This document shows, piece after piece, positions 9,144-37,971 of a stretch of 44,112 bases of DNA. Both the position numbers and the translations under genes were made by a program. The stretch lies in contig JAFKKL010000011.1 of NCBI GenBank assembly GCA_017305595.1, positions 1 through 44,112 on the forward strand, in the 5' to 3' direction. Within the stretch, counting starts at the first letter, position 1, and every line of letters starts with the position of its first letter. This DNA comes from Hyphomicrobiales bacterium. Its GTDB lineage: Bacteria > Pseudomonadota > Alphaproteobacteria > Rhizobiales > Xanthobacteraceae. The notes under the pieces are model-generated. The model was given only the letters and a program-made list of their open reading frames with translations, did not search any database and was not told the origin of the DNA.

Positions 9144-9268
9144 CGTCATGCCCGGGCATAGCCGTTCGAAGAACGGCGTCGCTTCGCTCGCCTTTGTGCC
9201 GGGCATCCACGTCTTAAACTCTCGCAAGGACAAAAACGTGGATGGCCGGGACAAGCCCGGCCATGACG
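9144..9268. repeat. bipartite palindromic intergenic repeat, copy 1
   Basis: Two inverted arms. The left arm (9144-9213) begins CGTCATGCCCGGG and contains a nested hairpin GCCGTTC-gaa-GAACGGC (9161-9177). The right arm (9237-9268) contains the core GGCCGGGACAAGCCCGGCC and ends CATGACG. The same right arm recurs at 17132-17163 and, with two changes, at 34166-34197. This copy lies exactly between two convergent genes. Confidence 0.85.
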
Positions 9269-17073: not shown

Positions 17074-17163
17074 CGTGATGGCCGGATTTATTCCGGCCAC
17101 CCACGTCTTGCTTGCTGACGTGTTTTTAAGACGTGGATGGCCGGGACAAGCCCGGCCATGACG
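17074..17163. repeat. bipartite palindromic intergenic repeat, copy 2
   Basis: The left arm (17074-17108) has GATGGCCGG...CCGGCCACCCACG. The right arm (17132-17163) carries CGTGGATGG and the core GGCCGGGACAAGCCCGGCC, identical to the right arm at 9237-9268. An ACGTCTT / AAGACGT pair links the arms. It lies exactly between the convergent acyl-CoA ligase and HWE-type kinase genes. Confidence 0.88.
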
Positions 17164-37400: not shown

Positions 37401-37443
37401 CGTCACCCTGAGGCGCTCGGACGAAGTCCGAGCCTCGAAGGGT
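37401..37443. repeat. palindromic repeat, second family, copy A
   Basis: CACCCTGAGGC-GCTCGGAC-gaa-GTCCGAGC-CTCGAAGGGTG forms an internal palindrome. It shares the CCTGAGG...CGAAGG ends with copies B, C and D, but is more diverged. Confidence 0.8.
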
Positions 37444-37479
37444 GGCAGCCACAATACGGAAAATCTTGCTATACAACTG

Positions 37480-37526
37480 CATCCTTCGAGGCTCACGGCA
37501 TACGCCGCTCGCACCTAAGGATGACG
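37480..37526. repeat. palindromic repeat, second family, copy B (inverted)
   Basis: CATCCTTCGAGGCTC...GCACCTAAGGATGACG is in the opposite orientation to copies A and C. With copy A it brackets 36 bp of unidentified sequence. Confidence 0.8.
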
Positions 37527-37573
37527 ACTCAGATGCGCTCCAACTTCTATTAGGTTGACATCAATCCCATTGC

Positions 37574-37613
37574 CGTCATCCTGAGGTGCGAGCGAAGCGA
37601 GCCTCGAAGGATG
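37574..37613. repeat. palindromic repeat, second family, copy C
   Basis: CGTCATCCTGAGGTGCGAGC...GAGCCTCGAAGGATG. It ends five bases before the GIY-YIG start codon, and its AAGGA (37607-37611) is that gene's ribosome-binding site. Confidence 0.88.
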
Positions 37614-37618
37614 CAAGA

Positions 37619-37927
37619 ATGGGCATCTACGTCTATATGCTCCGATGTGCTGATGACTCGTACTATATCGGCAGCGCGACCGGGGACGACCTTTCCCATC
37701 GCATCGCTCAACACAACGCAGGCACGTTTGCCGGCTATATCTTCACTCGCCGCCCCGTGATGCTGGTTTGGTCAGAACACTTTGATCGTATCACCGATGG
37801 CATCGCCGCCGAGCGTCGGCTCAAAGGGTGGAGTCGAGCCAAGAAAGAAGCCTTGATCAAGGGAGATTGGTCGACGTTGACAACGCTGGCGAAACAACGT
37901 GCCGGACACCCGCGCAACAGCGCGTAG
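37619..37927 (+). CDS. small GIY-YIG nuclease-domain protein
   Basis: A 102-residue single-domain GIY-YIG protein (UPF0213/YhbQ-like). Seen are YVYMLRCADDSYYIGSA in place of the GIY...YIG strands, the catalytic Arg in LSHRIAQHN, and the Glu in GIAAERRLKGWSR that binds the metal. The domain cuts or nicks DNA in homing endonucleases and UvrC. The start ATG 37619 uses a ribosome-binding site (AAGGA) that lies inside repeat copy C. Repeat copy D begins four bases after the stop. The gene is thus boxed by an inverted pair of repeats. Confidence 0.85.
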   Translation: MGIYVYMLRCADDSYYIGSATGDDLSHRIAQHNAGTFAGYIFTRRPVMLVWSEHFDRITDGIAAERRLKGWSRAKKEALIKGDWSTLTTLAKQRAGHPRNSA

Positions 37928-37931
37928 CCAC

Positions 37932-37971
37932 CATCCTTCGAGGCTCGCTGCGTTCGCACCTCAGGATGACG
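37932..37971. repeat. palindromic repeat, second family, copy D (inverted)
   Basis: CATCCTTCGAGGCTCGCTGCG...CCTCAGGATGACG is an inverted match of copy C. It lies between the GIY-YIG gene and the convergent nudix gene. Confidence 0.88.

Follow-up and report, generated by a model that had tools for sequence, protein, structure and literature searches.

A small GIY-YIG nuclease gene is associated, genuinely and in a clade-specific manner, with the CGTC-tagged palindromes that bracket it. The best supported reading of this association is a nuclease-based system resembling a REPtron, in which the enzyme would cleave and spread its cognate repeats. The gene lies in the window, i.e. the whole stretch of 44,112 nucleotides analysed here from a Hyphomicrobiales bacterium, whose draft genome comprises 392 contigs and has a completeness of 94%. 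The pairing of gene clade with palindrome class is specific and also applies to another GIY-YIG clade, which is accompanied by a different class of CGTC palindrome.

Four copies of one repeat surround or precede the gene. Copy A (37401..37444, plus strand) is a CGTC-tagged palindrome of the class named T1 (CTGAG..TCGAAG) and, together with copy B (37480..37526, minus strand), makes up an outward-tagged inverted pair resembling a REPIN. Copies C (37574..37613, plus strand) and D (37932..37971, minus strand) likewise form an inverted dimer, consisting of 40 nt arms that are 95% complementary and separated by 318 nt, and the gene is located inside it: 5 bp separate the end of C from the ATG start codon, and D starts 4 bp past the stop codon. 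Both the order A(+) B(-) C(+) D(-) and the bracketing of the nuclease gene within a few bases, which an earlier note on this DNA had described, are confirmed from the sequence. The sequence reads CGTCAT in B, C and D, where the CGTC tag leads into a stem that opens with AT, and CGTCAC in A. The arms of all four copies approximate CATCCTGAGG and CCTCGAAGGATG, with CACCC/GGGTG in A, and their centre is variable. Compared with shuffled sequences, folding as single-stranded DNA is clear for A (z -4.0) and B (z -2.4) and, with each copy taken alone, weak for C (z -1.2) and D (z -1.5).

The gene itself (37619..37927, plus strand) was delimited as an open reading frame with a Pfam match, encodes 102 amino acids and represents clade I, the window-type clade. 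Its product scores 56.5 bits against the Pfam GIY-YIG model (cut-off 22.6), which is its sole Pfam match, and a search of NCBIfam assigned the protein to no family. The gene is situated between two other genes as well as between the palindromes, and neither an intron nor an intein was seen. An AAGGA in copy C (37607..37611, plus strand) had been proposed in the earlier note as the ribosome-binding site of the gene; its position, 7 nt before the ATG, fits that role, which remains putative along with the start codon since a GTG at 37586, inside copy C, could also start the frame. Further upstream, TTGACA (37555..37560, plus strand) stands 17 bp before the ATCCTG of copy C as a putative -35 box.

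Throughout the genome to which the window belongs, a strict repeat pattern finds 31 matches and the relaxed T1 pattern finds 93, compared with none for the reversed control of either. Together with the 95% complementarity of C and D, these counts rule out a chance origin of the repeats in the window. The 93 scattered palindromes share the genome with one clade I gene among 7 GIY-YIG matches. An RNA family was considered and rejected, the Rfam matches being four microRNA entries only, all far under their gathering scores.

Relatives of the protein were sought by scanning GTDB genomes with protein patterns only. Of 564 loci that were confirmed, the best 80 were taken for analysis; their hosts include Bradyrhizobium, Methylobacterium, Microvirga and Reyranella. 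One of the alignments, A1, comprised the window protein and five order-level matches that had already been seen by eye to adjoin palindromes. Among the best 80 of 564 loci, a palindrome is present within 400 bp of the gene in 72 (both sides in 46) and within 150 bp in 70 (both sides in 44). Controls at the same loci have one within 150 bp in 20/274 small ORFs (both sides 2/274) and 125/920 other genes (both sides 7/920). Intergenic gaps tell the same story, with a repeat held in 92/114 gaps beside the gene versus 25/597 elsewhere. Repeat density is 7.4 per kb within 100 bp of the gene and 0.02-0.07 per kb past 700 bp; a base-shuffled control yielded 1 match in 1.34 Mb. The strict T1 detector is positive in 51/80 of these loci and the relaxed one in 74/80, on a background of 46/881. 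Since the 80 loci have common ancestry, Fisher values computed from them exaggerate the significance, and they were also grouped into 48 contexts by blastn of their 2.1-kb flanks, a procedure by which some contexts may be split or joined. Counted in this safer way, 42/48 contexts have a copy within 400 bp and 27/48 have copies on both sides, so the association of GIY-YIG genes with the repeat elsewhere, on which the earlier note had made its proposal depend, is upheld.

In the 46 two-sided loci of this set, the nearest copies are oriented + gene - in 24, - gene + in 16 and in the same direction in 6, making the proximal repeats mutually inverted in 40/46. A copy ends no more than 9 bp before the start codon in 17/80 loci, and in 11/80 a copy contains the stop codon. 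Of the 36 loci from this set with a proximal plus copy, 15 have TTGAC(A) exactly 17 bp before its ATCCTG, the spacing found in the window. From its sequence this element may be a promoter with the repeat as its downstream part. The 15 loci fall into 7 context groups, suggesting that the linker, copy C and the gene travelled together. At some loci, then, the repeat also contains the stop codon or adjoins a putative promoter.

A class-level sample was chosen regardless of repeats. It comprised the first 60 GIY-YIG rows listed whose reading frame did not exceed 300 aa, from 115 genomes, and omitted rows of the window's own genome; 30 ParE toxin loci came from a search of 115 class genomes drawn likewise, and control ORFs followed a plain longest-ORF rule with no gene finder. 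Within 300-bp flanks, an inverted pair accompanies 21/59 GIY-YIG genes (one of the 60 was omitted here for its short flanks), 7/309 other ORFs and 0/30 ParE genes. Strict tagged hairpins stand on both sides of 15/60, 3/313 and 0/30, respectively. The second class of palindrome, T2, has the form CGTCAT..stem-loop..ATCCA, and a strict T2 match is present on either side of 28/60 GIY-YIG genes, 44/313 other ORFs and 5/30 ParE genes. Looser detectors have a higher background. An initial generic hairpin detector that used a 5-base arm was positive for 26/59 GIY-YIG genes, 32/309 other ORFs and 2/30 ParE genes, and the relaxed T2 detector for 26/60 and 11/29 GIY-YIG genes, 56/313 other ORFs and 7/30 ParE genes, as well as for 259/881 ORFs at the best 80 of 564 loci. 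Statements on T2 therefore rest on the strict two-sided count, the inverted pairs and the protein tree. Loci were available for 33 of the 40 rows from the genus of the window; the analysis covered 29 of them and omitted the UvrC loci L051, L056, L057 and L059.

The tree comprises 111 proteins, is built on few alignment columns and has many open forks. Its input included 15 loci drawn at random from the best 80 of 564, and it omits UvrC loci (L005, L007, L049), broken genes (L039, L062), a partial one (L061) and genes with in-frame stops (L070, L074, L080). Each protein was labelled by the repeats on either side of its gene, T1 by the relaxed detector and T2 by the strict one. Clade I, with 35 rows, contains 32 labelled T1, 2 without a repeat and 1 labelled T2. 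Clade II, of the GTLYVGVT type and with a branch support of 99, has 48 rows, 33 labelled T2, 15 without a repeat and none labelled T1. The other 28 GIY-YIG rows, which by motif we take to be YhbQ-like and YVGWT-type, are without a repeat in 27 cases and labelled T2 in 1. The repeat label changes 17 times on the tree, compared with a mean of 51.6 when shuffled. Both pairings occur in the window's genome, where the window gene is accompanied by T1 and a gene on another contig (L004) has T2 on both sides. Within clade I, the protein tree also groups like T1 sub-types together (15 changes vs 37.7), a pattern that host relatedness alone could explain in part.

Co-occurrence was surveyed in an order-level sample of 150 genomes, 20 of which are repeat-rich with at least 10 relaxed T1 copies. 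A clade I gene was called above 60 bits in a first search of all 150 genomes, and at or above 97 bits with a second alignment, A2, in a search of all 20 repeat-rich and 20 of the 130 repeat-poor genomes. The gene is present in 10/20 repeat-rich and 0/130 repeat-poor genomes; three weaker matches (under 47 bits) in genomes with 0-1 copies belong to other sub-families. In this sample, then, the gene was not found without the repeat and the repeat was often found without the gene. One genome (G102) has 118 relaxed T1 copies and no clade I gene at or above 97 bits, and three members of the window's genus (G001, G002 and G006) have repeats and no clade I gene. Together with the other half of the repeat-rich genomes, these show that the repeats persist without the gene.

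A wider sample of 299 genomes from the phylum gave 32 rows of at least 97 bits. Of the 17 loci given, one (L312) duplicates the gene known as L073, which leaves 16 new clade I loci; one of these (L296) was not located, and the other 15 were decoded. T1 is present within 300 bp in 7 of the 15 (on both sides in 5) and was absent from that distance in 8, a figure in which one locus with an in-frame stop (L295) is scored as lacking the repeat. Five of the 8 repeat-negative and 2 of the 7 repeat-positive loci come from the family coded f61, presumably sphingomonad-like to judge from the sequences. Two of the negatives (L288 and L294) have the clade I GIY-YIG domain in a single reading frame with a downstream protein, which we take to be RNA-methyltransferase-like. 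On plasmids, relatives at E 1e-15 occur in only 3 of 72,556 records.

Sites with and without the gene can be compared directly, and alleles without it, whose absence the earlier note would have counted against its proposal, are present at two sites. The window's site was compared across 8 genomes of the genus. Two of them, the window's genome and G003, have the gene, and in G003 the counterparts of C and D bracket it as well. Both neighbours without the gene are present in G001 and G004 (35-36 bp between the matched flanks) and in G007 (144 bp) and G002 (351 bp), the latter two each with pairs of other CGTC palindromes. In G005 and G006 one neighbour only was matched, and G005 has a single CGTC palindrome there. 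At the second site, defined by locus L084, the neighbouring gene was found at 80% identity or more in 40/79 genomes, and 30 loci were fetched. One of the 30 has the arrangement A(+) B(-) C(+) gene D(-). For 21 others, no more than 275 bp separate the anchor from the beginning of the downstream flank and the gene was not found; for the remaining 8, that flank either escaped detection or is about 950-1010 bp away, and the gene motif was not matched. Letter-by-letter examination of 12 of the 30 revealed a T1 pair only in L270, L274 and L278, T2-like pairs in L252 and L262, CGTCATTGCGAGC-type pairs in L257, L266 and L280, one palindrome in L256 and none in L260 and L272. In L251, an 11-base loop end is common to D and B, as if the gene lay within the loop of a second repeat pair. 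With pairs from at least three classes of CGTC palindrome, or none, in different relatives, the site spanning L251-L280 looks like a hot spot for the insertion of repeat pairs.

Turning to the protein, comparison with the G003 ortholog over 94 codons gives a dN/dS of 0.08, so the window gene is under purifying selection; the codon comparison with L098, which was out of register, was left out. An AlphaFold2 model of the protein has a pLDDT of 89.1. The nearest solved sequences are 1ywl and 1zg2, both uncharacterised UPF0213 proteins, and the nearest folds are 1zg2 and 1ywl, followed by Slx1 as a weak match (E 0.035 and above). Residues Y16, R28, H32 and E65 are invariant in the 14 rows of alignment A2 and are presumably catalytic, by analogy with GIY-YIG enzymes in general.

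The likeness to REP palindromes and their RAYT transposases that the earlier note had remarked upon is borne out in anatomy, both in the inverted copies around a low-copy gene and in the pairing of clade with class. As far as the excerpts of PMC6006769 and PMC8266576 go, a REPtron consists of a low-copy RAYT gene flanked by scattered palindromes, often as inverted pairs, with gene subclasses matched to palindrome types and a patchy distribution. Correspondingly, the window gene is flanked by an inverted pair, 46/80 of its best-scoring relatives (from 564) are two-sided with 40/46 inverted, palindromes are many and genes few (93 and one of clade I in the window's genome), and gene subclass is tied to palindrome type on the tree, the sub-types being partly confounded by host relatedness. 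The differences are that the enzyme is a GIY-YIG protein and not a Y1/HUH tyrosine transposase, and that the tag of A-D is CGTC and not GTAG (or GT[AG]G). CGTC-tagged REPs were described in 2013 as widespread in alphaproteobacteria, apparently without a dedicated transposase, with a stem of 8-9 bp, a loop of 4-5 bases, a CGTC (or TGTC/CCTC) tag followed by AT and a predominance of inverted dimers (PMC3733652, in the parts consulted). Judged against this description only, the present repeats agree in the CGTC tag, the AT at the start of the stem, the inverted dimers (A/B and C/D in the window) and a mostly alphaproteobacterial occurrence. T2, with its short loops and CCA-like tail, fits better, beside clade II, than T1, whose stem is bulged and whose loop is variable and often long. 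The same excerpts of PMC3733652 discuss transposase genes alone and give a count of intragenic REPs that omits those inside hypothetical proteins of less than 120 aa, which may account for the link having been overlooked. In the open-access literature, i.e. outside preprints and most subscription journals, none of the matches listed joins GIY-YIG genes with REP palindromes, and word counts of one paper on REPs (PMC12306157) gave no word starting with nuclease, GIY or transposase.

Among GIY-YIG proteins, UPF0213/YhbQ-like proteins provide the nearest solved sequences and folds, with Slx1 a weak match. They differ in that the tree rows outside clades I and II, YhbQ-like and YVGWT-type by motif, are repeat-free in 27/28, and Slx1 differs in having Slx4 as a partner, according to the titles of its structure entries. 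GIY-YIG homing endonucleases share the catalytic domain family, the conserved Y16, R28, H32 and E65 (whose roles we assume) and the presence or absence of the gene at one site; unlike them, the present gene is associated with no intron or intein that could be seen, is bracketed by a dispersed palindrome and shows the pairing of clade with class.

Taken together, the right description is probably a REPtron-like system in which a GIY-YIG nuclease acts on its cognate repeats, with cleavage and spread as the conjectural part. The protein, which has the branched-DNA nuclease Slx1 as a weak fold match after the two UPF0213 proteins, would recognise its cognate tagged palindrome, probably as a hairpin or cruciform. 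It would then nick or cut at the palindrome, and copying coupled to replication or repair could put repeat pairs elsewhere. The repeat-gene-repeat block may represent the autonomous form and the approximately 100 gene-less copies the non-autonomous form. The putative promoter abutting copy C, along with the AAGGA, would make expression depend on the repeat being intact. Several observations weigh against such a system: half of the repeat-rich genomes (10/20) are without a clade I gene, 8/15 new phylum loci are without T1 within 300 bp, 15/48 clade II rows are without strict T2 (for which the either-side background is 44/313), and the strict T1 detector is positive in only 51 of the best 80 of 564 loci. 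Also counting against it are the few gene copies and their rarity on plasmids (3 of 72,556 records), unlike an ordinary insertion sequence, the share that host relatedness may have in the clustering of T1 sub-types, and the weakness of the Slx1 match.

GIY-YIG nucleases are known homing enzymes, a topic covered by PMC3943268 too, and it is possible, if unlikely, that another mover spreads the repeats and that a selfish free-standing GIY-YIG endonuclease cuts the pairs and copies itself using the repeats as homology arms. The gene does lie between a plus and a minus copy in 24/46 two-sided loci among the best 80 of 564, alleles with a pair only occur at a site where one relative has the gene, and the repeats persist without it. 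This account must face the failure to find another mover (a Y1 transposase search gave no match in 18/21 repeat-rich genomes), the absence of the gene from all those of the order's 150 genomes with fewer than 10 repeat copies, and its 1-2 copies despite about 100 targets. A domesticated host function, by which the nuclease would resolve or trim repeat cruciforms or be regulated by the repeat and would play no part in its spread, appears quite doubtful. It would accommodate purifying selection (dN/dS 0.08), low copy number, the putative promoter at copy C, a fold weakly near that of Slx1 and, among the best 80 of 564 loci, the stop codon in a repeat (11/80) and the repeat end within 9 bp of the start (17/80). 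It sits poorly with the patchy distribution (10/150 genomes of the order), a site that is occupied by the gene in some relatives and not in others, and a neighbouring repeat common to 42/48 contexts.

That the repeats collect in any weakly constrained intergenic DNA and merely surround small accessory genes is very improbable. CGTC pairs of several classes do occur at one intergenic site in various relatives that have no gene there. This reading is contradicted by the ParE control (inverted pairs in 0/30 vs 21/59 for GIY-YIG), by the small ORFs (repeats on both sides in 2/274 vs 44 of the best 80 of 564 loci) and by the other GIY-YIG clades, which are repeat-free in 27/28 with repeat class tracking gene clade. 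RAYTs, i.e. Y1 tyrosine transposases, are held in the excerpts of PMC3733652 and PMC6006769 to mobilise GTAG palindromes of like anatomy, and one located elsewhere in the genome might in principle move the present palindromes in trans. No Y1_Tnp match was obtained in the 392 contigs of the window's genome, a 94% complete draft, or in 18/21 repeat-rich genomes (20 of the order and G003), including G124 with 151 copies and G072 with 87 copies on one contig. Y1_Tnp exceeds its cut-off in 2/21, and at the two loci concerned no T1 adjoins the gene, the nearest pair in one being about 1.1 kb off. Action of a RAYT in trans was set aside on these two grounds as scarcely credible.

Returning to the nuclease-based system, its clade-matched gene offers a concrete candidate partner for CGTC palindromes and, by its sequence associations, the clade I gene is a good candidate for the missing partner enzyme of these repeats. 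Whether the CGTC superfamily as a whole has dedicated enzymes, with at least two GIY-YIG clades each specific to a palindrome class and spreading repeats free of a transposase through structure-selective cleavage and host repair or replication, we judge to be an even question. If so, REP-type repeats would have found partners in two unrelated enzyme families, and a second, independently evolved REP-mobilising system would exist beside the RAYTs. The clade-matched gene also provides a likely meaning for small GIY-YIG genes whose sole annotation is "nuclease family protein", an example being one annotated plasmid match.

Two further observations concern the palindromes themselves. A second CGTC palindrome, CGTCATGGCCGGGCTTGTCCCGGCCATCCA, occurs twice in the window (9239-9268 and 17134-17163, both on the minus strand); in two genomes of the genus (L050, L060) it is found on either side of clade II GIY-YIG genes. 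In addition, the GIY-YIG proteins of L161, L221, L126, L290 and L299 have the C-termini PSTSSG, PSTGSG or SFDKLRT, which are the translation of a CCTTCGACAAGCTCAGG-type palindrome; at these five loci the C-terminal residues are encoded by the palindrome, and the repeat thus extends the reading frame.
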